A stretch of DNA of 64,000 nt from a virus: IMG/VR virus record IMGVR_UViG_3300028283_000002, positions 1 to 64,000 of that record; one strand, given 5' to 3'. The notes below the pieces were generated by a model. That model was given only the letters and a program-made list of their open reading frames with translations, did not search any database and was not told the origin of the DNA. This document shows positions 3,326 to 61,573 of the stretch, in pieces. Position numbers and translations under genes: made by a program. Numbering within the stretch: the first letter of the stretch is position 1; each line of letters begins with the position of its first letter.

Positions 3326-3661
3326 ATGAAGAAGATTTCTAAACTTATAGAAGAAGAATATAAATTAAATGAGATTGTTAATTCTAATGATCCTTACGGT
3401 GAAGAGGATTGGGAAGAAGATTACGATGTAATTTACGAGAGACCCGGTTTAATAGCCAAACATAGGAAAGGTGGGGGAGTTGGTGCGTGGACCTGGAATG
3501 TTAATATTCCTAATTACTGGTTGCACGTAATAGAGAAAAATCCAGAATGGGCAAACCACGCAGATAAAAAAGAATTTTATTGTGGTTTCTTGGCTGGATT
3601 CACATTAGCTGACGAGTTTTACGAAAAAATAAAAGGGTGTAGCGGTGATAAAGAAATTTAA
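3326..3661 (+). CDS. DPYGEE-tagged hypothetical protein
   Basis: Product of 111 aa with an N-terminal leader-like segment MKKISKLIEEEYKLNE. The tag DPYGEEDWEED follows at about residues 22-32, then a Trp-rich globular part. No catalytic motif was recognised. It overlaps the next gene by 17 nt. First of four consecutive genes that carry the tag near the N terminus. Confidence 0.85.
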   Translation: MKKISKLIEEEYKLNEIVNSNDPYGEEDWEEDYDVIYERPGLIAKHRKGGGVGAWTWNVNIPNYWLHVIEKNPEWANHADKKEFYCGFLAGFTLADEFYEKIKGCSGDKEI

Positions 3662-3925
3662 ATTATTCGAGTTAAATACACCAGAAGATCCTTACGGTGA
3701 GGAAGAATGGGGAAATCCAACAGGTTATTTCTATGTTTACAGACACAGAAATGACGTAGATCAACATTACGCCGAAGAATACTTTAGGACAGAAAACCCA
3801 AGAATTTACGGTAGTTATGAAGAAGCAAATAGAGCATTAGATAGAGCTTGTTTGATGATTGCGGTGAGGCAATTTTTGCTTTACTTCCTAACGGCGAAAT
3901 AAAAAGAGAAAAATTCAGAAGATGA
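3645..3925 (+). CDS. DPYGEE-tagged hypothetical protein (apparent frameshift)
   Basis: Starts with GTG (VIKKFKLFEL) inside the previous gene and carries DPYGEEEW at about residues 15-22. As given, the frame stops at 3902 with an unnatural hydrophobic tail. With one base added near 3848 the frame continues as ALFDDCGEAIFALLPNGE and ends at a TGA overlapping the next ATG (ATGA at 3922), giving about 93 aa. The coupled stop/start strongly favours the restored reading. Function unknown. Confidence 0.75.
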
Positions 3926-4418
3926 TTAAGAACTATAAATTATTTGAATTAAAAGGACACGAAGACGTTGATCCATATGGCGAGGAAGACTGGGATGTTG
4001 GTGATGACGATATTACCAGAAAGATGAGAAAAGAACTTCGTCATTATTTTAATGAGTTGTACGGTGATAAATACGACGAAAGAATTAAATTTATTGAATT
4101 TAAACCAAATGAAAATTGTTAAGCCGCTCAACCATTTTTTGTGAATCTATTTACGAAATAGTTAGTTATACAGATGAAGGAAGAAAGAATGGAACATTAG
4201 GATATATTAGTGCTAGATCCAAAATGGAAGCAAGATCGGTATATGTTCTTTGGGAAATGGTTAATAAAGTTAAACCAAGAGGAATCAGTGATATTCTTTT
4301 CACTGGTTTTTACGGGGCAGAAAATATAAGTCAAGATAAAATTGATGAGAAGATAGCCTATCACTATCAAAAATTAAGTGAACTGGAAAACATAAAAGAA
4401 ATTCTGAAAAATATGTAA
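3922..4418 (+). CDS. DPYGEE-tagged hypothetical protein (apparent frameshift)
   Basis: Starts MIKNYKLFELKGHEDVDPYGEEDW, combining the leader and the tag. The frame stops at 4122. One extra base in the A-run near 4107 joins it to the open frame that continues to 4418 (FKPNEKLLSRSTIFCES...), giving about 165 aa, close to the 162 aa of the next tagged gene. The downstream half alone has only a TTG start, so two separate genes are unlikely. Confidence 0.7.
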
Positions 4419-4437
4419 TAAAAAAATTAGTTCTACA

Positions 4438-4926
4438 ATGATAAAGAAATTTAGATTATTCGAATCAAGTCACGATGACGTTGATCCATACGGTGAAGAG
4501 ATATGGGATGATATTCAAGGATTTGAAATTAAAAAAGTTGGATTGAAAGAAGGTGGATTTTATTACTTCGCTTCATTCCACGATCAAGAGCCAGTAAATC
4601 GACCAGGTAGTATATTTCAATTTCAAGGAGTAATGGAGAATAACTATCTCCTAGCCATTGGTAAAATGTTCAACAACGGATATTCTTTTAGATTTTACCC
4701 AATGCCAGATTGGGAATGGATAGAATTAACAGAAGAAGAAAAGGAAGCGTTCTTCAATGATAAATTAGAAGTTAAAGTCTTCCATCTTTTTGCTAGAAAA
4801 GGTTTCCTTGGTAGAAGAGGTGATCCAGATGAAAACGAAGGAGAGATGAAAGATTTAAAGTTTTCTGAAATTCTTAAAATATTTAATATCACCAAAGAAG
4901 AATTCATAATGGCTAAAAATCAATAA
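4438..4926 (+). CDS. DPYGEE-tagged hypothetical protein
   Basis: Product of 162 aa. Leader MIKKFRLFESSHDD is followed at once by VDPYGEEIWDD. The rest is an alpha/beta protein with FYYFASFHDQEPVN and a Trp/Glu-rich centre, with no known domain. Its leader is almost identical to those of the two genes before it, while the bodies differ. That pattern suggests an exchangeable N-terminal sorting module on different cargoes. Confidence 0.88.
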   Translation: MIKKFRLFESSHDDVDPYGEEIWDDIQGFEIKKVGLKEGGFYYFASFHDQEPVNRPGSIFQFQGVMENNYLLAIGKMFNNGYSFRFYPMPDWEWIELTEEEKEAFFNDKLEVKVFHLFARKGFLGRRGDPDENEGEMKDLKFSEILKIFNITKEEFIMAKNQ

Positions 4927-4957
4927 TCTTTTTCCCTATTTTAGCATATATTGTTTT

Positions 4958-5302: not shown

Positions 5303-5975
5303 TTGTAATTGACGTACCACCGTCTTTTAAAGTGGCTTTAATCTCGTCATTACTCATAATATCTTTAAATATAGCGTCTTTATTCTGAACATTTTGTAAA
5401 TTCCAATCGTTACCAGCATTAGATGTTTTAAAAATATAATTCTTTCCACCCCTCTTTATTTCTATTGTCTTACTGGATAACTTATCGTAGAAATTTCTTA
5501 TATTCTCATTCACCTTATACATCTTTATTGCTTCCCATTTATTTGAACCTCTTGCTCTACTTTGAAATACAATATACTCAGGTTTTGGTTCAAGTTCGGA
5601 ATCTTCCTTTTTAAATATTAAAAAGAATTTTATATCAAGAGTCTTATCTAGAAAAGTTTCACAATCTTTTGAATATTCTATATTATTCTTTTTGAATCCT
5701 TTAGCGTCTAGTTTTTTGAGAAATTCTGGATCTTTTGAAAGAACGTCTATATCATTTATATTTTCAGAATTGAAATCAATAACGTCACCAATGAGAACTT
5801 GCTCGGCGTTGATAGATTTTAAAAGGGTTTCAGAGTCAGTAACGATGCTTTCTAATACGTTAGCATCATTAACAATTTCTTTCATTTCTAAATCTTCTTT
5901 AACAAATTTATTATACCCTTTGATTCTCATATCTGTAATTTTTTTTATCGTAGGTCTGCTGATTTTGATCTTCAT
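5292..5975 (-). CDS. Hypothetical protein
   Basis: About 227 aa from MKIKISRPTIKKITDMRIKG. An in-frame ATG also exists at 6008, but the nearer one reduces overlap with the upstream gene. The protein is Lys/Asp/Asn-rich with no membrane segment. The second half looks like a mixed alpha/beta domain with YIVFQSRARGSNKWEAIKMY. The 65-nt overlap with the gene ending at 5911 is long for this genome, so the start, or the upstream gene's end, may be wrong. Function unknown. Confidence 0.75.
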   Translation of the reverse strand: MKIKISRPTIKKITDMRIKGYNKFVKEDLEMKEIVNDANVLESIVTDSETLLKSINAEQVLIGDVIDFNSENINDIDVLSKDPEFLKKLDAKGFKKNNIEYSKDCETFLDKTLDIKFFLIFKKEDSELEPKPEYIVFQSRARGSNKWEAIKMYKVNENIRNFYDKLSSKTIEIKRGGKNYIFKTSNAGNDWNLQNVQNKDAIFKDIMSNDEIKATLKDGGTSITIIA

Positions 5976-7125
5976 CAAATTTCTCTCTTTCAAATATCTG
6001 AATATCAATCTTTCGAGCTAAAGTTAGTAGAATTTGAGATTCTTTGTAATGTTTAATTACAATACTATTATCTTCGGGTGGTACGGTAGTGTCTGCTGTT
6101 ATTTTATTTCTATGAAAATATATAATCATTTCCCATTTATCTGCTGGTCTTTTAACGTCTATTCTTAAATAAGATTTTGGTGGTTGATTGAGTTTGATTT
6201 CGGTTCTGAACCATTCTTCATTTTTTGGATGAGGTCTGTACCAAGTTAGTTTATTTTCTTTAGTTTCTTTGTAGATTTTCATCTTCAATTGGACTTCTGA
6301 TTTTTCTTTACCTTTTTCGTCTTCTTCTGTTGTTGTAGAAGTGGATGCTGGCATATCGTCATTTAACATTTTCAATCTCTCGTACTGTTCTTCTGATATG
6401 AAATCACTTTCTGGACAAACGTCACCTTCAATTTTCATAAGTCCTGTAAGAGGATTGTAGAATTCTATTTTATATGGTGTGTCTTTCTTTAATCTTCTAA
6501 TTCTATCTCCAACGTAATAAACGGTATCACCAGATTTAAATTTCTTAACAAATGAATCGTAATTACTAACAGTTGGTTTATTTGAAGCAGATCTAGACAC
6601 AGTGCCAGATTTTTTCTTTTCTTTATATTCTTCCTCTGATATAAAATCTCTATTAATCACACTAACTGGTATTTGACCCCATTCATTATTAGCAAAAATA
6701 TCAAATACGTCTGTGTTTCTATTTGCCCATAACCTGAAAGCGTGGTCGTGATCAAATTGATCGTCGTCACCGTTATAATAAACTACGTCACCATTTCTAA
6801 AATCATTCTTCTTTATTGGTGTTGCTATGCCAGATTCTTTCCAAAATTCTTTTCTTTTTCCTTCTTTATATTCAATTTCAGAAATAAAATCATCTACCGA
6901 AAAATACGGAGCTCTACCGTCTGGTAATCTAATAGAAAGACCGTAATATGATTCAGATTTTGGGCGACACTCAACAACTTTATAAGGAGTATCGTGTTTT
7001 ACCGTCGCTACTGGACCTGCTCCTTTTCCACCACCAGTTACACCAGTATAATATATAGTATCACCACGTTTAAATTTTGATTTATAAAGTGGAGTTTTAT
7101 TAGGTCTATTAGCTACAGTGGTCAT
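5911..7125 (-). CDS. Three-repeat SH3-like domain protein
   Basis: Product of 404 aa. Three repeats of about 60-75 residues start with F(K/R)xGDxxYYxG (KFKRGDTIYYTG near 18, DFRNGDVVYYNG near 106, KFKSGDTVYYVG near 192). Each ends with DFISEExYKE, with DTPYK in the middle of two. Short beta strands and glycines suggest SH3-like barrels used for binding. The last 140 residues form a separate domain with many Lys and Trp residues. It overlaps the upstream gene by 4 nt. No enzyme motif is visible. Confidence 0.85.
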   Translation of the reverse strand: MTTVANRPNKTPLYKSKFKRGDTIYYTGVTGGGKGAGPVATVKHDTPYKVVECRPKSESYYGLSIRLPDGRAPYFSVDDFISEIEYKEGKRKEFWKESGIATPIKKNDFRNGDVVYYNGDDDQFDHDHAFRLWANRNTDVFDIFANNEWGQIPVSVINRDFISEEEYKEKKKSGTVSRSASNKPTVSNYDSFVKKFKSGDTVYYVGDRIRRLKKDTPYKIEFYNPLTGLMKIEGDVCPESDFISEEQYERLKMLNDDMPASTSTTTEEDEKGKEKSEVQLKMKIYKETKENKLTWYRPHPKNEEWFRTEIKLNQPPKSYLRIDVKRPADKWEMIIYFHRNKITADTTVPPEDNSIVIKHYKESQILLTLARKIDIQIFEREKFDEDQNQQTYDKKNYRYENQRV

Positions 7126-7529
7126 TTCTTATCTGATTTTTTTCGTAGATCTGGTAATACTATTTCAAGTAGATTAGATAACTTTAATTGTCCTATCGAT
7201 ATTCTTCTACAAAATATTTCTTTTTTACCGTTTTTACTCATGTAAATATCCAAAGTGATCACATTTGAAAACATATCCTGAAACTCGTAACCAAACATTT
7301 CGTTCTCACCGTATTCATCTTCCATTAGTTGATCAGATATTTTAAAGATAGTATCTATTTTAGTTTCACCGTAATTTTTAGTTACTTTTGTATATATCAT
7401 GTCGTCTTCACCGTACCATTCAAGTTTGTTTTTCTTGGTGTCTTCCATTAAAAGATCAATAATATCACTATCAGATTTTTTAAATCTGATATCTGGACCA
7501 TTTTTAATTAATTCGGCAATTCTGGGCAT
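7122..7529 (-). CDS. Hypothetical protein
   Basis: Product of 135 aa starting MPRIAELIKNGPDIRFKKSD. Acidic, soluble, with the pattern KLEWYGEDDMIYTKV, resembling TWYRPHPKNEEWFRTE in the downstream gene (5911-7125). The two may share a domain. A TTAATATATA box lies 23 nt upstream. Function unknown. Confidence 0.82.
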   Translation of the reverse strand: MPRIAELIKNGPDIRFKKSDSDIIDLLMEDTKKNKLEWYGEDDMIYTKVTKNYGETKIDTIFKISDQLMEDEYGENEMFGYEFQDMFSNVITLDIYMSKNGKKEIFCRRISIGQLKLSNLLEIVLPDLRKKSDKK

Positions 7530-7552
7530 GAAATTTCAATTTAGTTTAAGAC

Positions 7553-7562
7553 TATATATTAA
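7553..7562 (-). promoter_or_regulatory. Putative phage promoter box TTAATATATA
   Basis: Exact copy in the gap between 7529 and 7565, 23 nt upstream of the ATG at 7529, heading the three-gene run to 5292. Confidence 0.5.
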
Positions 7563-7564
7563 AA

Positions 7565-8359
7565 CTAAATTTCAATAAAATTTATAGGAATCTCCTGATG
7601 GCAGGAAATGTTTTCAAATCCTTCAAACGGAGTTAAATCTATTTTTTTACCTGATAAAAATTGTTCATTTAAGTACTCAGCAGTTACGTTACCGTGAACG
7701 TTCTCGTTCCAATCCTGAACTTTATTCACGGGGTTATTTACTATTATAGATTTATCGTAACAAATAAGTTTTGGATGATATAAAGGATTCATAGCCATTT
7801 GAGACTCTAAAGAATTTGGACCGTCATATCTTATATTTAAAAGATAATAATAAATATCTCTACTCCTAAAGAAATGTCCATCTAAAGACATAGGATAACC
7901 GTAATCCCCAGTTTGACCTTTCCATAAAAAAACATTATTCTCATTAAATTGTGGGGGAATTTGTTTTAAGTTGGCTGCGTAACAATAAGTTAATCTCGGG
8001 TGAAGTCTTAAAGATAAAGCTAAGACGTCACCGTGAGTATCAAAGAATTTAAATTTATCGTCGTTAATGGAGAAAGGTTCTTTGAATACAATATCATCAA
8101 CAAAAAAAACAGTATATTTTTCTTTCTTATCGAAAATATTTATAAGGCAATTTTGAAATCCTATTTCGTTCTGCCATATAATATTCTTATCTGGATGAAT
8201 CTCTTTTAGTTTTTCGTAACCTTTTTCGAATTCGAAACCAACTCCTTTATATAATATTTTGATTTGGTGTTGTTCGAACTCCTTAAAATACTTTTTCATA
8301 GAACGAATAAAGAGTTCTAATTGGCAGGCTCTATTCTTACTGAAAACTATAATATTCAT
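7565..8359 (-). CDS. Putative GT-A-type glycosyltransferase
   Basis: Product of 264 aa. It opens with MNIIVFSKNRACQLELFIRS, the nucleotide-binding strand and helix typical of family 2-like glycosyltransferases. TVFFVDDIVF at about residues 83-92 is a DxD-like metal/nucleotide-sugar motif. It could glycosylate DNA, a virion protein or the host surface; the sequence does not decide. A small membrane-protein cluster lies upstream. Confidence 0.7.
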   Translation of the reverse strand: MNIIVFSKNRACQLELFIRSMKKYFKEFEQHQIKILYKGVGFEFEKGYEKLKEIHPDKNIIWQNEIGFQNCLINIFDKKEKYTVFFVDDIVFKEPFSINDDKFKFFDTHGDVLALSLRLHPRLTYCYAANLKQIPPQFNENNVFLWKGQTGDYGYPMSLDGHFFRSRDIYYYLLNIRYDGPNSLESQMAMNPLYHPKLICYDKSIIVNNPVNKVQDWNENVHGNVTAEYLNEQFLSGKKIDLTPFEGFENISCHQEIPINFIEI

Positions 8360-8410
8360 GTGTATGATTTTTTGAATTATATCACACTAAATTGTATAAG
8401 TTTATCGCTA

Positions 8411-8752
8411 TCAAGAAAAAGGTAAAGCTCCACCCATAAGATGGTACAATAACCAAGAGCCGTATGTTATAATAGCTAAAGCGTTAATTCCACCCCAGGC
8501 CATTGTGCTGAAATCTGGAACGAAATCGTCGTTTCCACTCCATAAAGTGTATTGCCAAAATGAAGGACCTTCTTTTATAGTTGGGTAACCGTAATTATAT
8601 TTCGGTCTTTTAATAAACCATATAATTCCTCTAACACTAAATATACCAAAGCATACTAGATTGATTACAATTAACATGGCTAGATAAGCCAATGGATCAG
8701 ACGGACTCGATCCCGAGTCCACCATAATCGGTAATAACATTTGTCCTAACAT
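8411..8752 (-). CDS. Small membrane protein, two predicted TM segments
   Basis: Product of 113 aa with a hydrophobic segment at about 22-46 (LAYLAMLIVINLVCFGIFSV) and another at about 87-107. A Trp/Tyr/Pro-rich loop lies between them. No family recognised. It is followed by the glycosyltransferase gene. Confidence 0.8.
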   Translation of the reverse strand: MLGQMLLPIMVDSGSSPSDPLAYLAMLIVINLVCFGIFSVRGIIWFIKRPKYNYGYPTIKEGPSFWQYTLWSGNDDFVPDFSTMAWGGINALAIITYGSWLLYHLMGGALPFS

Positions 8753-8753
8753 A

Positions 8754-9011
8754 TTAATTTGCGTTTTCTATTATCAATTTACCTGTTTCTCTCTCGGGTA
8801 CAAACCTCAAATGTTTAACATCAAAATATTTATCAAGATAAGTGAGTACAACATTAAGTTCGTTAGTATCAGCAAACATTATCTGTACGTAATCCTGCAT
8901 CTTAAAATACACAGTTATATAACCACCACCAGCCTTTTGACTGTAAAAAGTTGGAACGTAACGATGAATATTGTCAGGATCTATCCTATGATTATTAATA
9001 TTTATCATCAT
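8754..9011 (-). CDS. Hypothetical protein
   Basis: Product of 85 aa (or 84 if the second Met is used), predicted alpha/beta with YITVYFKMQDYVQIMF. It has no motif. It lies 1 nt upstream of the membrane protein gene, as part of one operon. Confidence 0.75.
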   Translation of the reverse strand: MMININNHRIDPDNIHRYVPTFYSQKAGGGYITVYFKMQDYVQIMFADTNELNVVLTYLDKYFDVKHLRFVPERETGKLIIENAN

Positions 9012-9017
9012 ATTTAA

Positions 9018-9311
9018 TTATTTAAGATTTTGTAACATTCCCATCATATCTGATTGATTAAAACCAAGATATTCATTTGTTTTCTTCATGTCTTCCTCGA
9101 GATCACGACCAAACCTGTCTTTATAATCTGTTTTCAAGTTATTGCTGAATTCCTTGGCTATCTTCAACATTTTTAACATGTTGGCAGTTGCTAGTTTTTC
9201 CTGTAGTTCCTGTAACTTAGGTGCCATAAATTCATTAAGTTCGTCAATGATTTTCTTTACCTCTGGATCTTCGATGTTTTCGAATTTTGCTTTAATTTCT
9301 TCTGGTGTCAT
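9018..9311 (-). CDS. Hypothetical helical protein
   Basis: Product of 97 aa, almost entirely amphipathic helix, Lys/Glu-rich, with a Met-rich C-terminal part (DMMGMLQNL). Possibly a small coiled-coil or chaperone-like protein. No family recognised. Confidence 0.78.
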   Translation of the reverse strand: MTPEEIKAKFENIEDPEVKKIIDELNEFMAPKLQELQEKLATANMLKMLKIAKEFSNNLKTDYKDRFGRDLEEDMKKTNEYLGFNQSDMMGMLQNLK

Positions 9312-9351
9312 TTTATTTGTTTTTTTTTAATTGTTTATAATTTTTTTATTG

Positions 9352-10211
9352 TTAACGTATAACTGGATTATATATCCCTTCATTATTCTTAACCGTATCA
9401 TCGTCCCATCTCTCTTCACCGTAAGGATCTAAAGCTGTTATTTTTCTGTTTCTTTTAATAGCCACACAGAACAAATGATTTTCTTGTTGAACTTTAAAAG
9501 TTTCTATTTCAAATCCTATTTTCTCTAATTCTTCTTTTAATTCTGTATCGTAATCCACTTCTGTTGGCTGATTAAAGAAATGGCAATATCCTCTACCTTT
9601 ATCGTCTTTCAATCCCCACACCCAACTGTCTTTATTTTCTTCCGTCATAATAAAAGACGAGAACACCATTATACCATCGTCATTCAATCTCTTAAAAGAT
9701 TTCTTCAAATAGTTAAATCTTTGCTTTTGTGAAAGATGTTGAAACACATTCATAGAATAAACTATATCTAAATCTCTAGGTATATCCTTCGGAATTTTCC
9801 AACCATCGTTCTCGTATAAATTAGAAAATCTATCTATTCTTTTATCAATATCTATGCCAAAATATTCAATTCTTGGCATTACCTTAGCACAAGTACTATG
9901 TAACCACTCAGCAAAAGCACCAAACCCGTAACCTATTTCTAATATCTTTACATTTTTACCACTATTTAAAGTGTTCTGAATTTTTGTAGCCACAGCACTT
10001 AAAGCTCCTTGTGTATAAGCGAAACTGTTATTTGCGATGTTAGCTGTGTGCTCATCTTTAACTTTTGCACCTGTTACAGCAAGAAGTTTATAACCGTCAT
10101 CTAATGTTTTCCAAAACGCCTGATTATTTTATCATCAATATTCAATGTGTAACCATCATTATAATATTTATAATAAGGGGTTAAAAAGTTCTTTCTGTTA
10201 CATTTCTTCAT
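9352..10211 (-). CDS. Class I SAM methyltransferase with C-terminal DPYGEE tag (apparent frameshift)
   Basis: The methyltransferase core reads VKILEIGYGFGAFAEWL (motif I, E.G.G), an acidic end of strand 2 (GIDID) and DIVYSMNVFQHL (motif IV). C terminus ITALDPYGEERWDDD carries the shared tag, with about 14 residues after it. The frame from 9993 has no good start. One added base near 10130 joins it to ATG 10211 (MKKCNRKNFLTPYYKYYNDG), giving about 286 aa. Substrate unknown. Confidence 0.78.
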
Positions 10212-10221
10212 TTTATTTGTT

Positions 10222-26288: not shown

Positions 26289-26669
26289 TTATTCACTAAT
26301 ATCTTCTTCACCGTATGGATCTAATTCGTTTACATTTCTATTAATTGTTCTAGTCCAAGTTATTGTTGATTTTTCAGGAATAAGAAAATCCTCTTCGTGA
26401 CCGTTACTAACTCTACCAATAAAATGAAATTCATATTTTCTTTCATCTAGCACAACTTCACTAACTTTTATAGTCGCTCTGGCGTGCCATGTTCTAAGAG
26501 GCATTTTAAGATACTCAGAAACATTAACTGTTCTGCCTATCATTTCTTTTTTTAAATATTCAAATATATTATAGTAGGTTAAAAACTCATCACCCATTTC
26601 CCAAATAGATCTGGATATGGTTATATCTTCAACTGATTCTTTAACGTAAGATGAAAAATTAATGATCAT
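26289..26669 (-). CDS. Leader- and DPYGEE-tagged hypothetical protein
   Basis: Product of 126 aa from MIINFSSYVKESVEDITISR, whose ATG overlaps the stop of the upstream tagged gene. C terminus NELDPYGEEDISE has the tag without its usual Trp. The body is beta-rich with FHFIGRVSNGHEEDF. Part of four consecutive leader/tag genes. Confidence 0.85.
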   Translation of the reverse strand: MIINFSSYVKESVEDITISRSIWEMGDEFLTYYNIFEYLKKEMIGRTVNVSEYLKMPLRTWHARATIKVSEVVLDERKYEFHFIGRVSNGHEEDFLIPEKSTITWTRTINRNVNELDPYGEEDISE

Positions 26670-27135
26670 CCCAATCCTCCTCTCCGTAAGGATCATGTTT
26701 AGATACTATGACTTTTGGTTGAATAAATGTAAATTCATACATTTCTTTTGTAGATAAGATAAACAGAGAATCATCTGCTTTCACATTGATAACAATAGAA
26801 TCATCTATAATTTCTACACCGTGATTTTTACCTACCGTGACTTTATGACCAGCCTTTGCCCCAAAAACTAAGAAAGGCTCGTTTTGACTGATTAAAATGG
26901 TGCTAGTACCAATATGTCTTAATCTAATATATCTTCCACTAGATTCACATATTGCCTTGATTCTATTACCACAAGCAATTATATCTTTGTGATCTAAATT
27001 GTACAACTCTTTTAAAGACATAACCATAGGTTTATTCTTTCTTTCATCTTCTGTTTCGTGTGGGGGAAGAGCCAAAGGGGCATTCTTAAAAAGACTAGCA
27101 TCAGATTGATCGAATTGTTCGTAAGTTTTTATCAT
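26659..27135 (-). CDS. Leader- and DPYGEE-tagged hypothetical protein
   Basis: Product of 158 aa. N terminus MIKTYEQFDQSDASLF is close to the T4 capsid targeting leader, and the C terminus HDPYGEEDWDDH is the tag. The body contains VFGAKAGHKVTVGKNHGVEI, a beta-rich region. A TTTATATATA box lies 5 nt before the ATG. Function unknown. Confidence 0.87.
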   Translation of the reverse strand: MIKTYEQFDQSDASLFKNAPLALPPHETEDERKNKPMVMSLKELYNLDHKDIIACGNRIKAICESSGRYIRLRHIGTSTILISQNEPFLVFGAKAGHKVTVGKNHGVEIIDDSIVINVKADDSLFILSTKEMYEFTFIQPKVIVSKHDPYGEEDWDDH

Positions 27136-27140
27136 GATTC

Positions 27141-27150
27141 TATATATAAA
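27141..27150 (-). promoter_or_regulatory. Putative phage promoter box (TTTATATATA)
   Basis: Variant box 5 nt before the ATG at 27135. Confidence 0.42.
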
Positions 27151-27163
27151 ATTTTAATTTTAA

Positions 27164-27568
27164 TTAATCGTCCCACTCCTCTTCACCGTACGGATCTTCT
27201 ATCGTATAAATTCTTTTCGCTAACGCAACCTTAACTGGAAACTCTAAATTAACCATTATATCGGCATTTCTAATATCAAACCATATTTTGTGAATAGTTT
27301 TATTAGTGTGCCTATCGTATCTCTCGCTATATTTTATTCTCTCGACCGTAACGGTCATTGGTTCAACCATTTTAATTATTTCTCCCGATGTATCACTATA
27401 CATCCAATGAAATTGTACTATCTTATTTAAAAATAATTTATCCAGATATCTAGTAAGAAGTCCGTTATCATTTAGTTCCCACATTTCAATTGTATCAATA
27501 TAATCATCACATATTTTTAGAAGATCATACGATTTGTAACTTGAAAAATTTTCAAATATCTTAATCAT
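27164..27568 (-). CDS. Leader- and DPYGEE-tagged hypothetical protein
   Basis: Product of 134 aa from MIKIFENFSSYKSYDLL. The ATG lies inside the end of the upstream gene, where GATGATTAAG encodes both 'DD stop' and 'MIK'. C terminus IEDPYGEEEWDD. The body resembles 26289-26669 in outline: a leader, KLFLNKIVQFHW and a strand-rich end. The two may be paralogs. Confidence 0.86.
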   Translation of the reverse strand: MIKIFENFSSYKSYDLLKICDDYIDTIEMWELNDNGLLTRYLDKLFLNKIVQFHWMYSDTSGEIIKMVEPMTVTVERIKYSERYDRHTNKTIHKIWFDIRNADIMVNLEFPVKVALAKRIYTIEDPYGEEEWDD

Positions 27569-28007
27569 CCCACTCCTCCTCTCCATATGGATCTAAGGTC
27601 TTATCAACAACTATCTTTTTCCTTTCTTCTTTTAAATGTACTATTACTGGTTCTAACGGGTAAACTTCATATGTATCAATATGACCAGACACCATAAAAC
27701 TTATCGTAACATCAAAATCAAAAAAAGTAGTTACATCTACACTCAATATAACTCCAGTGATCTTCATCCCCTTCTTTTTTTCAATGTTACCTCGTGGATT
27801 TACATATTCCTCATCTTTATAAAATGTGCAAAGTTTATTTAACACTTTCCTTTTTAATATCTCTTCAAATTGTTGGCAATCAACGTAATCGTCGTCTGGA
27901 TTACAACATTTTTGACCTATATCAACAAGACTAACTTCTTCCGTGAATGGATATTCTAATAGAAGATCATCTATTTTATTTTCAAATATTTCAAATTTAG
28001 TTATCAT
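27561..28007 (-). CDS. Leader- and DPYGEE-tagged hypothetical protein
   Basis: Product of 148 aa. N terminus MITKFEIFENKIDDLL, C terminus TLDPYGEEEWDD. It contains a QKCCNPDDDYVDCQQ Cys cluster and a strand-rich middle. It has the same outline as the two following genes, so these small tagged proteins may be a diverged family. It overlaps the methyltransferase gene by 4 nt. Confidence 0.86.
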   Translation of the reverse strand: MITKFEIFENKIDDLLLEYPFTEEVSLVDIGQKCCNPDDDYVDCQQFEEILKRKVLNKLCTFYKDEEYVNPRGNIEKKKGMKITGVILSVDVTTFFDFDVTISFMVSGHIDTYEVYPLEPVIVHLKEERKKIVVDKTLDPYGEEEWDD

Positions 28008-28549
28008 AAAAAGGCTTTCATTGTGCTAGAAAAAAGTCTTGCTCTTACTCTATCTAGTACTATTTCTTTTTCTAAAAACCAACCCCAAGTATCTTTTATA
28101 TAAGGGCGTTTATGTGGACCTATAACTAATAAATTATCACTTGATTCCCCTAATGTAAATAAGAACGGTGGAAGTTTACTTTCATCTAATAAGTGTAGGG
28201 CGTAACTGCATATTACTAAAGAATAAGAACGATTACGTAACGATCCCTTCATAATATCTTCAAACTTCATACTTAAACAAGGTCTTCCTGTTTCTTTAGT
28301 ATATTCAGTAGAAAGGAAACCGTCTACAGCTTCTATATTATGTACTCCTAATTCCTCAAGAATTTTAGTTACTTCACCTTTGCCAGCAGCCAGATCAAGC
28401 ACACTAGTGAAATCTAAATCCCAATAATTATAAATATAATTAATTGTTTTTTTAATAGCTTCTTCGTGTGGGTTTTGATAATCACCAGCGTGGAAAGCGT
28501 AGAAATTTTTAACTCCGAATTTTTGATATTGATCTCTTATAGAATCCAT
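28004..28549 (-). CDS. Class I SAM-dependent methyltransferase
   Basis: Product of 181 aa. FTSVLDLAAGKGEVTKILEE is motif I, IEAVDG is the end of strand 2, and YSLVICSYALHLL is motif IV. Short, with no target-recognition domain. The substrate may be RNA, protein or a small molecule. A TTTATATATA box lies 5 nt before the ATG. It heads the run of tagged genes. Confidence 0.8.
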   Translation of the reverse strand: MDSIRDQYQKFGVKNFYAFHAGDYQNPHEEAIKKTINYIYNYWDLDFTSVLDLAAGKGEVTKILEELGVHNIEAVDGFLSTEYTKETGRPCLSMKFEDIMKGSLRNRSYSLVICSYALHLLDESKLPPFLFTLGESSDNLLVIGPHKRPYIKDTWGWFLEKEIVLDRVRARLFSSTMKAFL

Positions 28550-28581: not shown

Positions 28582-28911
28582 CTATTCATCCCAATCCTCC
28601 TCCCCGTAAGGATCTGCTTCACTAAATATAATTTTAGGTTCTTTATGACGTTTGAAATTATTATTATCAGTTGTTACTCCATTAATATCACCTGTTAATC
28701 TGTAAAAAACATCAGTATCATCGTCGTAAGTGAAAGCCTCAGCCATTTTATGGCAAGTTTTACAAAGGTTAATACCGTGAGTTTTAAGGTATTCTTTTTC
28801 GTATAATTTTTTAAATTTTTTATTTGAATGTAGAGTTACAGGAATATAGTGATGAAAAGTTGATTCCATCTCCCTACCACATATTTCACATATCCCCATA
28901 ATTATATTCAT
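28582..28911 (-). CDS. HNH-like zinc protein with C-terminal DPYGEE tag
   Basis: Product of 109 aa (or 105 from the internal ATG at 28899). CEICGREMESTFHHYIPVTL followed by INLCKTCHK is an HNH-type CxxC...HH...CxxCH arrangement that could be a small nuclease or a structural zinc fold. C terminus EADPYGEEDWDE is the tag. If head-packaged, a nuclease-like cargo would fit injection with DNA, but that is inference. Confidence 0.8.
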   Translation of the reverse strand: MNIIMGICEICGREMESTFHHYIPVTLHSNKKFKKLYEKEYLKTHGINLCKTCHKMAEAFTYDDDTDVFYRLTGDINGVTTDNNNFKRHKEPKIIFSEADPYGEEDWDE

Positions 28912-30920: not shown

Positions 30921-30921
30921 A

Positions 30922-31244
30922 TTAGTCGCCCCAATTTTCTTCCCCGTAAGGGTCTTCACTATTTATTTTTATAATTCCTTTTTCTAAAAGTTTCCTTCTA
31001 TACGCCACTTTATTATTTTTATTGGTTTTTCTATAAGTTCAAAATATATTTGGAATAAAAATTCACAAACAAGAATTAAGACTAAAATTAGTATTGTAAA
31101 AACAACAAAAAATATACTAACTGGTGTATAAACAGCGATCTTAGATAATATATCCATATTCCTATTATCTTCGGGATCGGATATGTAATAAGCAGCTAAA
31201 CTACTCAGGAAATATAATAATAAAAAACCAATTAACCAAATCAT
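30922..31244 (-). CDS. Membrane protein with C-terminal DPYGEE tag (apparent frameshift)
   Basis: The frame from ATG 31244 encodes two hydrophobic segments (about 1-18 and 36-60) and stops at 30984. The -1 frame directly after reads KVAYRRKLLEKGIIKINSED and ends PYGEENWGD at 30922, with no ATG of its own. One missing base in the A-rich stretch near 31015 would fuse them to about 107 aa. This would be the only membrane protein with the tag. Alternatives are a programmed -1 shift or a 28-aa peptide from GTG. Confidence 0.55.
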
Positions 31245-31248
31245 AAAT

Positions 31249-34467: not shown

Positions 34468-34530
34468 AACAGTTTTGTGTTAGTTATAACTAATACAAAT
34501 ATAATAAAAATTATTTGGAATAAAAAATTA

Positions 34531-51172: not shown

Positions 51173-52366
51173 ATGGGTTCTACAAAATACTTATATCAAT
51201 TTATACCAGATAAGTTTGAATATCTCACTAAAACCAAAGTAATTGAATTCAAGGAAGTTAATCTCAAAACAGCTTACCTTATTAATATAATTCACGAACT
51301 CATTCTTAAATTTTATTTTTCTAATAGAAACTATATTGATCTTGAACCAAATGAAGATATAAAATTTAATCTTTGGAGCTCTATCTTACGTAAGAAGTAC
51401 GGAATGCACTACAATATTTACATGGAATATCTTGTAAATATTGGTTTTATATCTATGACTTCTGATTATTACGTTGGTAAGAAAGCCAAGACATATAAGA
51501 TAAACCCATTTGAGATAAATACTATAAAGAAAGTAAAAACTAACGACACCATACTAGCCAAGAAAAGCACTAAAGAATATTTAATGCAATCAATTACAAG
51601 CTATTGTAACAGCCCAATTAATCCAAAGATAAGAAAGAAACTCGTTGACGACCTTTATCACGTTCAAATAGATTACGAAAAATCTATTAATCTACTCAAC
51701 GACTTAAAGAAGAACGGTAAAATAGAAATTAATAAATTTTATAAAAATCTTCATAGTGTTGAAAGTATTAAATCCAATAACCTATTTTTCAAATTTGACG
51801 AGTACGGTAGATTCCATACGAACTTCACAATTCTTAAAAGAGAAATAAGACAAAATTTCTTAAAGATTGATAACGAAGAAATTGTAGAGATTGATATTGG
51901 CAACTCACAACCTTTATTCTTAGCCTTATTATTACAAGAAGAAATGCAACCAGATGATCCAGAAATCAATAATTACATATGGTTGGCAAGACAAGGATTA
52001 TTTTACGAACACATATTAAATAATTTCACCAACTTAACTAGGAGTGATGTTAAACTATTAACCTACAAAGTATTATTTGGTCATAACGGTATAAACTCAA
52101 CAGAAAATAAAATATTTCAAAGTTTATTTCCAAAAATATATGACTATATAATTGAATATAAGAAGGTTAATGATAATTATAAATCAATGGCGCATATACT
52201 TCAAAAGATGGAGAGTGATTTCATATTTGGTAAAGTTGTAACTGAGATATATGATAAGATACCAGGTATAAGGTTATTCACTGTACATGACTCAATTTTA
52301 TTTCCTATTAAATACGAGAAGCAGGTGAGAGAAATATTTGAAAGAAATAAGAAGGAAATATTTTAA
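51173..52366 (+). CDS. Palm-only family A polymerase-like protein
   Basis: Product of 397 aa. IVEIDIGNSQPLFLALLL (238-254) fits motif A, with D241. TRSDVKLLTYKVLFGHNG (289-306) fits motif B (R...K......G), and LFTVHDSILF (369-378) fits motif C (HD). These appear in PolA order in the second half. No 3'-5' or 5'-3' exonuclease domain is visible. The N-terminal 200 residues may bind DNA or act as a primase-like part. I recall similar proteins in Bacteroidota mobile elements. DNA or RNA polymerase activity is inferred. Confidence 0.62.
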   Translation: MGSTKYLYQFIPDKFEYLTKTKVIEFKEVNLKTAYLINIIHELILKFYFSNRNYIDLEPNEDIKFNLWSSILRKKYGMHYNIYMEYLVNIGFISMTSDYYVGKKAKTYKINPFEINTIKKVKTNDTILAKKSTKEYLMQSITSYCNSPINPKIRKKLVDDLYHVQIDYEKSINLLNDLKKNGKIEINKFYKNLHSVESIKSNNLFFKFDEYGRFHTNFTILKREIRQNFLKIDNEEIVEIDIGNSQPLFLALLLQEEMQPDDPEINNYIWLARQGLFYEHILNNFTNLTRSDVKLLTYKVLFGHNGINSTENKIFQSLFPKIYDYIIEYKKVNDNYKSMAHILQKMESDFIFGKVVTEIYDKIPGIRLFTVHDSILFPIKYEKQVREIFERNKKEIF

Positions 52367-53007
52367 TCATCATCCCATTCTTCTTCACCGTATGGATCGA
52401 AAGGATTTATTCCTCCAATGATCTTTATTGGTTTTCTATGATCTATGTAGAAAGATTTACCGTCTTCTGTATAAATTTTTAACAGATCTCCTTGATGAAT
52501 AGCATCCAGTGAAATTGTAATTTTTACTGGAACACATTTAGCTATTTTTTTAATATTTGGATTAGAAGCATTAAAATTCGATAAAGCATCAGCGTTTTTA
52601 CTTCCTGTAAAAGTAATTTCTTTTCCAAAATATTTCTCAAATTCTTTCATAAACGTATCTATGAAAAAGAATCTACCTGTTGGTGATATATCAAAATATA
52701 CACTATGTCTTCTATCACTTGATCTAACTAAATAAGGTGTACAGTATTGACTTTCACTGGCTCTGTGATATATTACGTCTTCAACATTCATTATAGCGTT
52801 ATGAGAAGTACTCATATTACATTTAAAAGTTTCAGACATGAAGTTATTTGTGTGGAAAGACACTATTCTACCAACAAGATGGTCTCTGAAAATTTCAGCC
52901 ATTTTTTCACCAGCTTCAGTATCAATTCTTCTAATATCATCAGAGAAACTAATAACTTTATCAGTTTTCATAGCCTCATTTAAAAAATTATTGAATTTAG
53001 TTCTCAT
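52363..53007 (-). CDS. Leader- and DPYGEE-tagged hypothetical protein
   Basis: Product of 214 aa from MRTKFNNFLNEAMKTDKVIS, whose ATG overlaps the stop of the upstream tagged gene. C terminus NPFDPYGEEEWDDD. The body has a beta-rich domain with VSFHTNNFMSETFKCNM and a later KVPVKITISL-type strand. It is convergent with the polymerase-like gene. Confidence 0.85.
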   Translation of the reverse strand: MRTKFNNFLNEAMKTDKVISFSDDIRRIDTEAGEKMAEIFRDHLVGRIVSFHTNNFMSETFKCNMSTSHNAIMNVEDVIYHRASESQYCTPYLVRSSDRRHSVYFDISPTGRFFFIDTFMKEFEKYFGKEITFTGSKNADALSNFNASNPNIKKIAKCVPVKITISLDAIHQGDLLKIYTEDGKSFYIDHRKPIKIIGGINPFDPYGEEEWDDD

Positions 53008-53351
53008 TTTTCCCAAACTTCTTCACCGTAAGGATCTAACTCAGAGTGAGGATTAATTTTTCTTTTCTTTTTAATTTCAATAGCCTCTTTGTACGTCTTT
53101 GGACATTCACCTCCAACCATATCAAACTCTTTTTCTGTTAATACTATCGCTTTATAAGTATATCCTAAAGCAAATATAGCGTCTTTGGCTGATAGATTAT
53201 GGTTTTGACGTTTTAATTTACCGTCAACATACATACCAATCCAATCACCGTCTGTACTTTCTACAAATCTTATAACTGGATCTGGTCTTTCATAAGAAGA
53301 TTCATCACTTAGATTTACACCTATTGCTTCATTAAATTTTTTAATTTTCAT
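53004..53351 (-). CDS. Leader- and DPYGEE-tagged hypothetical protein
   Basis: Product of 115 aa. N terminus MKIKKFNEAIGVNLSDE, C terminus ELDPYGEEVWEK. The body includes YKAIVLTEKEFDMVGGECPK. A near-consensus TAATATATA box lies 5 nt before the ATG. Function unknown. Confidence 0.85.
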   Translation of the reverse strand: MKIKKFNEAIGVNLSDESSYERPDPVIRFVESTDGDWIGMYVDGKLKRQNHNLSAKDAIFALGYTYKAIVLTEKEFDMVGGECPKTYKEAIEIKKKRKINPHSELDPYGEEVWEK

Positions 53352-54509: not shown

Positions 54510-54516
54510 GAAGACA

Positions 54517-57102: not shown

Positions 57103-57460
57103 TAATTATTTTTATGCCATATTTATCTGCCCAATCATATATCTTATCTAAATATGGTAATATATTCTTCTCATTCTTTTCCTTTACCAACTTAACCAAA
57201 TCATTCCAACACTCTTTACCTATACCAACTAAATTATCTTTCTTACCAAGTAAAGCGTCTTTATATTTTTTAATGAACTCATTTACGTTCTTATCCTGCG
57301 AATATTTATTCCAAATATCAGTAACATCATACTCTAGTTCCCAATTAACTTCTTGAACGTCAAAATCATCCATAGAGTCTTCAATGGTAAGAGTAGATTG
57401 TTCGTTAACAAAGTCTTTGTAACTAGTTTTTATCATGTGTCTATAATTCTTTTTAGTCAT
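57071..57460 (-). CDS. Leader-bearing hypothetical protein
   Basis: Product of 129 aa from ATG 57460, overlapping the stop of the upstream gene. The leader MIKTSYKDFVNEQSTL begins at Met9, which may be the true start. The rest is acidic and helical with DVTDIWNKYSQDKNVNEFIK. It overlaps the next gene by 32 nt. Confidence 0.8.
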   Translation of the reverse strand: MTKKNYRHMIKTSYKDFVNEQSTLTIEDSMDDFDVQEVNWELEYDVTDIWNKYSQDKNVNEFIKKYKDALLGKKDNLVGIGKECWNDLVKLVKEKNEKNILPYLDKIYDWADKYGIKIISGKNEKPEGE

Positions 57461-58625
57461 GGTCTACGTAATTATAATATTGAAATGATTTCGCTTTATA
57501 ATCTATATTCAAAGCGTCTGGTGTTAATAATTGGTTTGTATCTCTATTAAAATATTTGAAAGTGTCCATAAAAGGATTGTTTTGAGGAACACCGTAATCT
57601 CTTTTCACAGTAACTCTCTTCACACCGTTACGATCTCTTACCCAAGGACCTATCATATTATTCTTTTTACAATATTCAACCATCTTTAGTTCACTTGTAT
57701 TATCTACTGAATAAATCCTATCCATGTAAACAGTACCGTCATCTAATTTCCAAATAAGTACTCTAGCCATCAACATCCCCTTATCATCTGTTAATATACC
57801 CATTGCGCATTTATCTGGATTTTCACAATAAATATCAAATCTTTTTTGCGATCTAGATGATCTCATACAAGAACCACCGATAGATCCTTGATGACCAGTT
57901 TCGCCTTTTCCGTAGGTAGTGCCAAGGTACCATTTTCTTATGTCCTCACCAACAACTACTTTCAAATTATCTTCTACGTTCTTTATTGTTTTTTCCCACA
58001 ATAATTTAAATTGGGGAATAAGTGCGTCTATTTCTTTATCAGTTAGATCTGGATCTAATTTTCTGAAAAATTTACCAATTTTCATAGTTTGTCTAAAACT
58101 GGCTTTATATGGATCTACTGCTTTATTTTTAATTTCTGATTTGAATTTGGATATAGGTACAAAAGAAATTAAATCACTTTTTTCAAAATCAACATTAACA
58201 AAACAAATATCGATATATTTTTTCTTTATTTTAAATTTTAGTTCAGCCAGAATATCTTTAATAAATTTACTACAATCAAATTCGACTAGATTTCCTCTAA
58301 GAAAATCTTTAGCTTCTTCTGGTGTAATTTTTATAAGACTTCTGCCTTGACTTTTTGTGATAGTAAATGTATCTGTAAGTCTATATTTATGATAAGGCAT
58401 CCATTGATAATCCCTTAATTTATTTTCTGGATCATCTGGTTTTTGTACTTTGATAGTATAAAAAGTTATTTTATCAACATCTGTAATAGTTTCAACTATA
58501 GCTAGTTTACCGTTAAGTTGTTGAACGCCACGAAAATTCTTATCACAGATAACGTAGTCACCCTCTTTTATCTCTTCCTTTTTAACTGCTTCATTCAAAA
58601 CTAAAAACTCATCATATTTGATCAT
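57453..58625 (-). CDS. SCM/GRxLxW family protein with leader, paralog 3
   Basis: Product of 390 aa. Leader MIKYDEFLVLNEAVKKEE is followed by a GDYVICDKNFRG beta domain (about 20-95). The family core GGSCMRSSRSQKRFDIYCEN, MLMARVLIWKLDDGTVYMDR and NNPFMDTFKYFNRD comes at about 255-370. It shares its domain order with 53398-54492. Function unknown. Confidence 0.84.
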   Translation of the reverse strand: MIKYDEFLVLNEAVKKEEIKEGDYVICDKNFRGVQQLNGKLAIVETITDVDKITFYTIKVQKPDDPENKLRDYQWMPYHKYRLTDTFTITKSQGRSLIKITPEEAKDFLRGNLVEFDCSKFIKDILAELKFKIKKKYIDICFVNVDFEKSDLISFVPISKFKSEIKNKAVDPYKASFRQTMKIGKFFRKLDPDLTDKEIDALIPQFKLLWEKTIKNVEDNLKVVVGEDIRKWYLGTTYGKGETGHQGSIGGSCMRSSRSQKRFDIYCENPDKCAMGILTDDKGMLMARVLIWKLDDGTVYMDRIYSVDNTSELKMVEYCKKNNMIGPWVRDRNGVKRVTVKRDYGVPQNNPFMDTFKYFNRDTNQLLTPDALNIDYKAKSFQYYNYVDHD

Positions 58626-58643
58626 TAATTAGTTAATTCTTTT

Positions 58644-59369: not shown

Positions 59370-59397
59370 ATCTTTTCAATTTTATTTTTATTAACTC

Positions 59398-59407
59398 TAT
59401 ATATTAA
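59398..59407 (-). promoter_or_regulatory. Putative phage promoter box TTAATATATA
   Basis: Exact copy 28 nt before ATG 59369. Confidence 0.5.
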
Positions 59408-59410
59408 AAT

Positions 59411-60280
59411 TTATTCCCATACATATAATCCATTTCCCCAATTCCTGGAATTTAATCCACACTTTCTACAAATCCAACCTCCACCATGTTCTCTTTCCAC
59501 CTTTGATTTTTTGTTACATTTAGGACAAGTATATATTTGAGTATCATCGTTATAAAAATCACTCAAAGGTAAAACCCCAGCGTCTAAAGGATTATTATAG
59601 TCTTCTAAAGGTCCATCAAAACCAAACACCTCATGGTCTGTGTCGTCAAATTCTTCTCCAAAAGAACAAACGTGCTTATCTCCTAAAATTTTCCCAATAA
59701 ATTTATTTTGACCGTACCTGTTATTATTAGCACGCCACTCAGCTAACAATTCATCACCTCTAGCCATTTGTTGGTGATATAGTTCTATCTCTCTATCCCA
59801 TCTACCTGGTTGCCTTGCTAACTCTCTATCATCCCAAATCTCTTCCCCGTATGGATCTAGTTCTCCCCTTGGATCACCAGCTTTATATTTAGTATTTTCA
59901 TCAACCTCCCACAACTCTTCACCGTAAGGATCTAGATATGGGTCAAAAATTTGTTTAATAGAGGACATCACTTCTATTTTATCGTTAAATGAAATGGAAG
60001 TGAAATTTTGATCTTGTGGGTTCTTTGTAGAAAATAATTTAAAATAATCTCTATTTGGCCAAACAACTACTCTCATTGGTACGATGTTTGTATTCTTAAC
60101 TCTTCCTCTAAAATCTTTTTGTACTATATTTAATCTTCTACCTAATAACATTTTTTTAAATTGAGGTATAGCTCTCTTTCTATCGTTGGCGCATTGTAAC
60201 AACACTTCATTGAAAGAAAAAACGTCCCCAATTTTAACTGTAACAGCTTCATTTATATATGTAGAAAAATTAGTTATCAT
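59411..60280 (-). CDS. Leader protein with two DPYGEE tags and a C-terminal zinc ribbon
   Basis: Product of 289 aa. Leader MITNFSTYINEAVTVKIGDV is followed by a beta domain to about 110. Two tags come next, LDPYGEELWEVD and GELDPYGEEIWDD, about 34 residues apart in the middle of the protein. The C-terminal part ends with TCPKCNKKSK ... GWICRKCGLN, a four-Cys zinc ribbon. It looks like a tagged protein fused to a further domain, or tandem tag duplication. Overlaps 60277 by 4 nt. Confidence 0.86.
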   Translation of the reverse strand: MITNFSTYINEAVTVKIGDVFSFNEVLLQCANDRKRAIPQFKKMLLGRRLNIVQKDFRGRVKNTNIVPMRVVVWPNRDYFKLFSTKNPQDQNFTSISFNDKIEVMSSIKQIFDPYLDPYGEELWEVDENTKYKAGDPRGELDPYGEEIWDDRELARQPGRWDREIELYHQQMARGDELLAEWRANNNRYGQNKFIGKILGDKHVCSFGEEFDDTDHEVFGFDGPLEDYNNPLDAGVLPLSDFYNDDTQIYTCPKCNKKSKVEREHGGGWICRKCGLNSRNWGNGLYVWE

Positions 60281-61245
60281 GCTAGTTCAAAAAATTCTTT
60301 TATAACAGATTTTTTAAGTTTTACTCCACCCTTATCGTCTTCGTCATTTTTACCACCTTTAAACCTCTTAGCTAAAATATTTATATCACCTACCATAGTT
60401 ACAATATAAACTAAATGTGTTGCACTTTTTGGTCTAATTCTATCACCTTCTTCTAAATCTTTTGTCCAGTCATCGTCCTCTTCCTCTGGTTGTACAACTT
60501 TAGTAAAATCATCAGCACTTTTTATAACTCCTTGATGATCAGCCCATGTTTTATAATCATATTTAACATATTTCTTTCTCGGTGAAAATCTATAAGCCGA
60601 ATTAAATTCTACTCCTGTTTTACCAAAATCTCTTTCCAATACTTCAAGTATATATCTCTTTGGTTCAAAATTTGCGAGTGCCTTTAACTCTGGTGAAACT
60701 TGTAAATGATCAATAGGTGGAAATAGAGGGAAATCAGCTCTTTCTACACCCATAACCCAAAATCTTGGTATAGTGTGATCTCTTGCCCCGTCTCTAAGAG
60801 GTTCTCTATCTGTGTAGATTATACCACTACCATATTTCTTTAAAACAGATTTGTATATAGCTTCTTGTGGTATCGGCATATGGGAACCGTAATAACCGTA
60901 AAGATATTTAACTTCGTCACCTTTCTTAATAGGTACAGTGAATTCTTCGTCATTTATCATAGACTCACCTTTGTAAAACATTCTTCTTCCCCATATCTTG
61001 CCCTCATTGTTATAACAGACAAAACAAGATATATTTTTGGTGTTCATTGTGTAGAAATCAAATGATTCTGGAGTATTTTCATCACCTGATCCAAAACCAA
61101 CTTCTTCAAAGAAACGCCAATTTTGACCTCCACCGAAAGAATTCTTCACATTGAAGTTAGCACAAGAGTAACCGAAATCTTTTGCTAGATAGTTTCCGTC
61201 GTATGCCATCATTATATCTTTACCTACTAATTCTTTTACTTTCAT
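60277..61245 (-). CDS. Distant SCM/GRxLxW family protein
   Basis: Product of 322 aa. FYTMNTKNISCFVCYNNEGK, IWGRRMFYKGESMINDEEFT matches the core of the three larger paralogs (Y..N...I......N..GK..GR....), without the SCM motif. The C-terminal part has an EEEDDDWTKDLEEGDRIRPK acidic stretch and a strand-rich end. It is followed by the double-tagged gene. Confidence 0.75.
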   Translation of the reverse strand: MKVKELVGKDIMMAYDGNYLAKDFGYSCANFNVKNSFGGGQNWRFFEEVGFGSGDENTPESFDFYTMNTKNISCFVCYNNEGKIWGRRMFYKGESMINDEEFTVPIKKGDEVKYLYGYYGSHMPIPQEAIYKSVLKKYGSGIIYTDREPLRDGARDHTIPRFWVMGVERADFPLFPPIDHLQVSPELKALANFEPKRYILEVLERDFGKTGVEFNSAYRFSPRKKYVKYDYKTWADHQGVIKSADDFTKVVQPEEEDDDWTKDLEEGDRIRPKSATHLVYIVTMVGDINILAKRFKGGKNDEDDKGGVKLKKSVIKEFFELA

Positions 61246-61261
61246 ATTTTTATTTTATTTT

Positions 61262-61573
61262 TTATTCATCTTCCCATACTTCTTCACCATATGGATCTAA
61301 TTCTCCTCTTGGGTTTCCACCGATATCTTCGAACGCGGATCTAAGTTCATTTAGAATAGTAAACAAAGCGTTCGAAAAATCACCAATAGTAACGTTTTCA
61401 ATTATTTTTTTACTATCGTGTTTAGAAAGCTCTTTTTTAGTTTCATCCCTCAATGATCTCAATATGTTGATTATATCAGTTTTAGAAATCCAAATATCGC
61501 CATCGATCTCTTTCCATTTACTAGATCTCAACCCTTTATGTTCATCAGATTCGTTAAATCTTTTAATTCTCAT
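61262..61573 (-). CDS. Leader- and DPYGEE-tagged hypothetical protein
   Basis: Product of 103 aa. N terminus MRIKRFNESDEHKGLRS, helical middle, C terminus NPRGELDPYGEEVWEDE. The stretch PRGELDPYGEE is identical to that before the second tag in 59411-60280, indicating common origin of that end. A TTTATATATA box lies upstream. Confidence 0.86.
   Translation of the reverse strand: MRIKRFNESDEHKGLRSSKWKEIDGDIWISKTDIINILRSLRDETKKELSKHDSKKIIENVTIGDFSNALFTILNELRSAFEDIGGNPRGELDPYGEEVWEDE

Follow-up and report, generated by a model that had tools for sequence, protein, structure and literature searches.

The window analysed here comprises the first 64 kb (64,000 nucleotides) of the 152,665-base virus record IMGVR_UViG_3300028283_000002, and it encodes, on otherwise unrelated proteins, a recurring acidic peptide consisting of DPYGEE, a free seventh residue and usually a tryptophan (hereafter the tag). 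The tag is under protein-level selection as a portable peptide on unrelated proteins, and it looks like an undescribed address label for proteins of a group of the largest known bacterial viruses. Docking or sorting is the best reading of the evidence, and we tentatively favour the view that the tag is a portable docking motif which would bring accessory proteins to one common phage-encoded partner.

A peptide tag on unrelated proteins

Within the window, 17 copies of DPYGEE are distributed across 16 reading frames, all of them at the places listed in an earlier note made from the sequence alone, and residue 8 is W in 16 of the 17 (I in 26289-26696). The whole record, itself a fragment, holds 36 copies compared with none of the reversed pattern, which served as a read-backwards control. 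The nearest named genome, LR756501 (735,411 bases; 88.2% identity over 87% of a 21-kb query), carries 109 copies in 94 of 994 gene calls; calls were made by our own script, and part of the tagged proteins were scanned for families. LR756503 matches the same query identically to LR756501. The paper that describes a 735-kb genome, to judge by length probably LR756501, assigns its largest genomes to the Mahaphage clade, with predicted hosts among the Bacteroidetes (PMC7162821).

Merely four one-substitution variants of DPYGEE occur in all six frames of LR756501, residue 8 is W in 103 of the 109 copies, and in an unbiased peptide count over its open reading frames DPYGEE ranks first by far, being present in 91 proteins compared with 0.009 occurrences expected. 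An origin by chance or composition was rejected on these grounds together with the empty reversed control. Among the titles and abstract openings returned by a search of the phage-tag literature, no described system of this kind was found; in the literature searched, the string DPYGEE turned up in a single paper, on yeast peptides, and papers on T4, the Gol peptide and encapsulins yielded background only.

The 94 tagged proteins of LR756501 fall into 92 families (phmmer, after masking of the tag and of residues 1-14), which bears out the earlier view that ordinary domain homology is not involved and leads us to reject, for this genome, recent copying of one gene as well. Three neighbours in the window (26289, 27164 and 27561) are 23-44% identical, leader and tag included, and may share a body; phmmer gave no link among their LR756501 counterparts. 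Among the tagged LR756501 proteins with a family match are a fusion of a tRNA nucleotidyltransferase and a deaminase that carries four tags (154863-158564) and an acetyltransferase (159126-159989). Two gene neighbourhoods in LR756501 were also recorded: an Hsp70 gene adjacent to one for a tagged protein that weakly matches a DnaJ zinc finger (5558-9517), and a gene for a Clp-type AAA+ unfoldase adjacent to one for a small tagged protein (352240-354745).

Enrichment at both protein ends had been anticipated, and it holds for the C-terminus: 42 of the 109 copies lie within 15 residues of the end, compared with 12.0 expected, whereas 24 start in the first 45 residues, compared with 33.8 expected. 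Counted by protein, 44 tags are C-terminal, 26 internal and 24 N-terminal, with at most four per protein and, in one case, tags placed around known domains.

Between the record and LR756501, tag status is concordant in 206 of 208 reciprocal best pairs (29 tagged in both, 177 in neither, two differing). The octamer codons of these tagged genes comprise 194 unchanged, 44 synonymously changed and two nonsynonymously changed, both at the free position 7, while the rest of the same genes shows 967 synonymous and 704 nonsynonymous changes. The tag therefore does not behave as a DNA repeat as such, which was rejected because its codons vary synonymously, even though their skew still points to old copying. 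Tag codons depart from genome usage, with CCT preferred over CCA in all nine genomes listed and TAC at 0.72 compared with 0.36 genome-wide in LR756501 (little excess in contigs G001 and G017); because of this skew, the copies are suggested to descend from common DNA. The same skew is what a selfish coding element, spreading as DNA without function for the phage, would leave behind. We regard such an element as very improbable, given that the seven constrained positions show 37 synonymous changes between the record and LR756501 and not one nonsynonymous change, and given the scarcity of one-substitution variants and the preference for the C-terminus.

Leaders, promoter-like motifs and structural fragments

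Many tagged proteins start like MIKKFxxFxE, resembling the capsid-targeting sequence (CTS) of phage T4. With a leader profile set at 2% background, a leader is found on 43 of the 94 tagged and 151 of the 900 untagged LR756501 proteins (odds ratio 4.2, p = 1.3e-9). The T4 CTS comprises 10 residues, of which mainly 4 and 7 serve targeting and 8 and 10 processing (PMC9026906), and it is borne by diverse defence-countering internal proteins (PMC3012670, PMC9391042). LR756501 encodes a T4-like portal (71969-73795, PF07230 1.1e-69). An S77-type protease, fused to a scaffold-like region in which YxEYIAE recurs, lies at 73913-76336, and the gene of a capsid protein resembling gp23 lies at 76340-78166. 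Relatives without the tag own leaders of the types MKHLKxYKIFES and MKYLKLYEDFSE. In one of them, LR756504, three proteins carry an MKYLKLYEDFS-like leader that leads straight into DWDDEE or DWDEEE and then a row of acidic residues, from which the tag may have arisen.

Two promoter-like motifs were used to class the genes. The late-type motif TWATATATA is intergenic in 245 of its 289 genome copies, and all of the 19 large genes taken as structural, mostly by size, lead back to it in an operon walk. The early-type motif, TAnnTTTG with a T-run, which we take to be a host-type early promoter, is intergenic in 77 of 202 copies. On these exact motifs, from which timing would follow, the leader-bearing tagged genes of LR756501 are classed as 41 late, one early and one without class, and the leaderless tagged genes as 20 late, 16 early and 15 without class (p = 9e-6, late vs early). 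Untagged leader genes are classed as 123 late, 12 early and 16 without class. A looser late-promoter score, which passed 418 intergenic and 271 coding sites, was replaced by the exact motifs; by that score a cluster of fragment genes at 552-556 kb of LR756501 is late, and by the exact motifs it has no class.

The tag is also linked to fragments of head and tail proteins. In the tagged lineage, such structural fragments account for 28 of the 284 proteins with the tag and for 17 of the 1,960 without it (odds ratio 12.5, p = 3e-15), counts from which full-length copies are left out on the untagged side, in which the broad motif drops two of the 94 LR756501 proteins and in which orthologues from different genomes are non-independent. 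LR756501 alone gives 7/92 and 10/898, respectively (p = 4e-4). Across genomes, the tagged pieces of the major capsid protein (MCP) tile much of it (profile positions 2-45, 78-134, 133-283, 300-373, 394-499 and 500-549), and other tagged fragments comprise the protease domain, scaffold repeats, portal pieces reordered around a tag and sheath ends. Some are chimaeras, in one of which a piece of the protease is followed by one of the capsid protein, a tag, a second capsid segment and a second tag. Three protease-like copies have RP, RS and RP in place of the Ser-Ser pair of the active-site region, and two of these copies lack the His; we take these residues to be the catalytic ones. Eight fragment genes (three untagged) are selected as proteins, with a pooled ratio of nonsynonymous to synonymous substitution rates of 0.16 compared with 0.12 in other untagged genes. 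The portal, protease-scaffold, MCP and sheath of LR756501 themselves carry no tag.

Because untagged fragments also occur in the relatives (five in LR745206, four in LR756502 and one in LR756504, over 400 kb each), fragments do not require the tag. A gene of LR756501 (276342-276899, minus strand) and pieces in LR745206 and LR756502 encode untagged mini capsid proteins, in which conserved MCP segments are joined and the rest is omitted; the LR756501 protein has no PHROG match. For one tagged capsid fragment, a structure model has a mean pLDDT of 68.5, with the tagged tail (residues 137-171) below 50 and five models differing widely, a low confidence of the kind seen in disordered tails, so far as one model may tell. 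When its fold was searched, neither library returned a match at E<=0.001; third place in the viral one went to a T4-like capsid protein (E 0.36). The model of the window protein at 27164 was poor throughout and was not used.

The fragments could form a decoy library, that is, mini-proteins made from conserved segments of the phage's own capsid, portal, prohead protease (with an altered active-site region), scaffold and sheath, many of them tagged and some in early-type operons; such decoys would block the host sensors of these components or interfere with how rival phages assemble, and the tag would recruit them to a common effector. We consider this unlikely but worth stating; it concerns the fragments and can coexist with docking. 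A literature search on capsid decoys found none.

Both the leader enrichment and the tags on fragments of MCP, protease, scaffold and portal are what one would expect if the tag were a second packaging signal, holding proteins in the prohead core or on the inner shell in the manner of encapsulin cargo-loading peptides and the T4 CTS, with the structural fragments as head anchors. The internal proteins of T4 are diverse cargoes which share just a targeting peptide (PMC3012670, PMC9026906). We nevertheless judge a packaging role to have a low probability, since 16 of the tagged genes without a leader have an early call, the tag is also found on fragments of the tail sheath and on proteins judged by eye to be membrane-bound, tag plus leader would be redundant, and three relatives have leaders without the tag.

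Fragments that resemble dominant-negative proteins would need removal, and tags at C-termini, in linkers and after leaders are suitably placed for a turnover mark, by which a phage or host protease would clear accessory and decoy proteins before assembly; the Clp-type unfoldase and Hsp70 genes of LR756501 each adjoin a tagged gene. Such a degron appears quite improbable to us, since late, leader-bearing proteins would be destroyed when needed.

Prohead protease sites have a hydrophobic residue ahead of x-Glu, and the variable positions 3 and 4 and fixed E5 of the tag fit that core, with cleavage after the first E ([YFL]-[GNSD]-E|[ED]). Candidate sites picked by eye read YIAE in the scaffold repeats of LR756501 and EYAE in its MCP. 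The proteases of T4 and giant phages cut after Glu, with few other determinants reported (PMC9026906), whereas D1, P2 and W8 of the tag are nearly as fixed as E5. A cut at an extreme C-terminal tag would release few residues, some tagged genes are called early, and the four main structural proteins of LR756501 are untagged. Of the three functions proposed in the earlier note, docking and sorting stand as the best class of explanation, while protease recognition fits poorly, because tags lie at the very ends of proteins and some genes in early-type operons carry them; cleavage by a prohead protease is accordingly given little credence here.

Range of the tag and a proposed docking role

The tag is present in other phage contigs, as a search suggested by the earlier note established: a scan of IMG/VR gave 55 tag stretches in 26 contigs, counted among the matches listed, and 17 contigs searched whole, all chosen as tagged, hold 1 to 35 copies each, two of them a single copy. 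The possibility that related phages would lack it was realised in part, as all seven named relatives (LR745206, LR756502, LR756504, LR756500, Lak-B1, PTm1 and PAU) are without the tag, also by a looser pattern, while other IMG/VR contigs have it. The MCPs of LR745206, LR756502 and LR756504 are 49-52% identical.

In bacterial genomes the octamer was found in 35 stretches. Three near-identical freshwater Bacteroidetes contigs encode a small protein ending in the tag; 14 of the 35 stretches are, by eye, the enolase loop of Lactobacillales (EIISIEDPYGEEDW), and one more of the remaining 18 looks enolase-like. The loop has the same octamer, but in a single conserved domain, and mimicry of enolase was set aside as a coincidence.

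Variants of the tag were counted in 13 stretches of 12 contigs: DPYGEE 171, DPLGEE 16, DPYNEE 13, DPFGEE 12, DPYDEE 6, DPYSEE 4 and others 8. Across contigs the motif reads D-P-[YFL]-[GNSD]-E-[ED]-x-W-[DEN]. Variants are related to position, with F at position 3 in 11 C-terminal vs five other copies and N, S or D at position 4 in two vs 23 (p = 8e-5, four copies being counted in both rows).

Under the docking reading, the tag would be a short linear motif that sits in the tails and linkers of a large number of accessory proteins unrelated to one another, seemingly copied from gene to gene as DNA and then held by protein-level selection. Leader-bearing tagged proteins behind late-type promoters should be packaged and injected; the leaderless ones, for the most part small proteins that end in the tag, lie partly in early-type operons, include cut-down head and tail proteins and would be made early. 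A newly infected cell would then contain both sets from the outset, and the tag would most likely recruit them to a common partner acting there, a shared action which we infer from the leader and promoter motifs.

Several observations weigh against this proposal. A search for the partner, by gene presence in tagged contigs and absence from three relatives (400 kb each), gave no convincing candidate, the contigs being fragments. A docking motif need not be so invariant, and several variants coexist in one contig, which a single strict reader does not predict. The early-type motif is weak, given its share of intergenic copies, 20 leaderless tagged genes are called late, and the leader-late link is not specific to the tag because untagged genes show it too. 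Nine tagged fragment genes of LR756501 are classed as two late, one early and six without class, and two of them bear leaders. N-terminal placement is not enriched, and the codon skew could have other causes.

Tagged genes of the window and comparison with known systems

The tagged genes and motifs of the window are collected in the table.

Table. Positions of tagged genes and putative promoter motifs in the window.
Feature	Position	Strand	Details
Tagged protein, tag near N-terminus	3326..3661	+	Octamer 3389-3412; late-type motif at 3312 (+)
Tagged protein, CTS-like leader VIKKFKLFE, then tag	3645..3902	+	Tag 3687-3710; leader by eye
Tagged protein, CTS-like leader MIKNYKLFE, then tag	3922..4122	+	Tag 3970-3993; leader by eye
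Tagged protein, CTS-like leader MIKKFRLFE, then tag	4438..4926	+	Tag 4483-4506; leader by eye
Methyltransferase-like protein	9352..9993	-	Tag 9406-9429; Pfam PF13489 6.7e-8
Protein with internal tag and MCP-like segment	23891..25213	-	Tag 24851-24874; segment aa 326-365 (~24119-24238), MCP profile iE 8.2e-9
Leader protein, C-terminal tag	26289..26696	-	Tag 26298-26321 (I for W); probable start 26669
Leader protein, C-terminal tag	26659..27135	-	Tag 26671-26694
Leader protein, C-terminal tag	27164..27586	-	Tag 27173-27196; probable start 27568
Leader protein, C-terminal tag	27561..28007	-	Tag 27570-27593
HNH-like protein, no leader seen, C-terminal tag	28582..28911	-	Tag 28591-28614; PF01844 E 0.0019, below cut-off
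Tag octamer in frameshifted small protein, hydrophobic N-terminal half	30931..30954	-	
Leader protein (MRTKFNNFLNEA), C-terminal tag	52363..53016	-	Tag 52375-52398
Leader protein (MKIKKFNEA), C-terminal tag	53004..53351	-	Tag 53013-53036
Leader protein (MITNFSTYINEA), two internal tags	59411..60280	-	Tags 59834-59857 and 59909-59932; zinc-ribbon-like end, PF01780 8.2e-5
Leader protein (MRIKRFNES), C-terminal tag	61262..61573	-	Tag 61274-61297
Putative late-type promoter motif TWATATATA	3312..3320	+	Ahead of 3326-4926 tagged genes
Putative late-type promoter motif	27141..27149	-	Inside 26289-28549 cluster
Putative late-type promoter motif	61601..61609	-	Ahead of 61262 and following genes
Putative early-type motif TAnnTTTG with T-run	34496..34503	-	Upstream of, and possibly driving, 28582-30960 genes

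Several assignments of the earlier note changed on closer inspection. The methyltransferase was borne out by its Pfam match, and its tag, described as C-terminal, sits about 20 residues before the end. The HNH-like call is backed by a match that stays under the threshold, and the supposed polymerase-like protein at 23891 was an impression that no Pfam match at the 0.01 level supports. At 30922 the window has no intact gene, the frame there being frameshifted relative to a 79-aa LR756501 homologue with a hydrophobic N-terminal half; the small protein is thus broken here (30900-31260) and intact in LR756501, a difference that is either real or an assembly error. A late-type motif at 31492 (minus strand) sits between the early-type motif at 34496 and the 28582-30960 genes.

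Other genes of the window include a 482-aa protein with a gp23-like stretch (42301-43749; PF07068, narrowly under the cut-off), which may be another protein of capsid type, an RtcB-type RNA ligase (61646-63136) and a UvsW-type helicase (1414-2976). Two further genes (53398-54492 and 57453-58625) are 91% and 97% identical to LR756501 counterparts and belong to a family of 18 in that genome, several members of which have capsid-targeting-like leaders; relatives have the family too, and it has no Pfam match and one weak match to a PHROG of unknown function.

Among known systems, the T4 CTS is likewise a short peptide common to unrelated, diverse phage accessory proteins. It is N-terminal (about the first 10 residues) and removed by a protease, whereas the tag is mostly C-terminal or internal, is not confined to the N-terminus, may follow a leader and also occurs on leaderless proteins. 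Encapsulins have few cargoes; their cargo-loading peptides are, like the tag, portable and cargo-selecting, and the tag differs from them in its 94 proteins in one genome, its internal copies and its multiple copies per protein. Import into the phage nucleus of the Chimalliviridae is a comparable selective sorting of some phage proteins to one compartment, but the head genes of LR756501 are T4-like (the shell protein was not searched for). Prohead protease sites share the x-Glu core after a hydrophobic residue with the tag, which has extra fixed residues and a C-terminal placement.

That about one in ten of the proteins called in a 735-kb phage carries one and the same peptide implies a common reader and a principle of sorting, which we did not find described for phages in the literature searched. 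Through the tag, close to a hundred proteins, most of them unknown, become accessible together, and its presence on pieces of head and tail proteins suggests a connection, open to testing, with decoys directed at host immunity or at competing phages.

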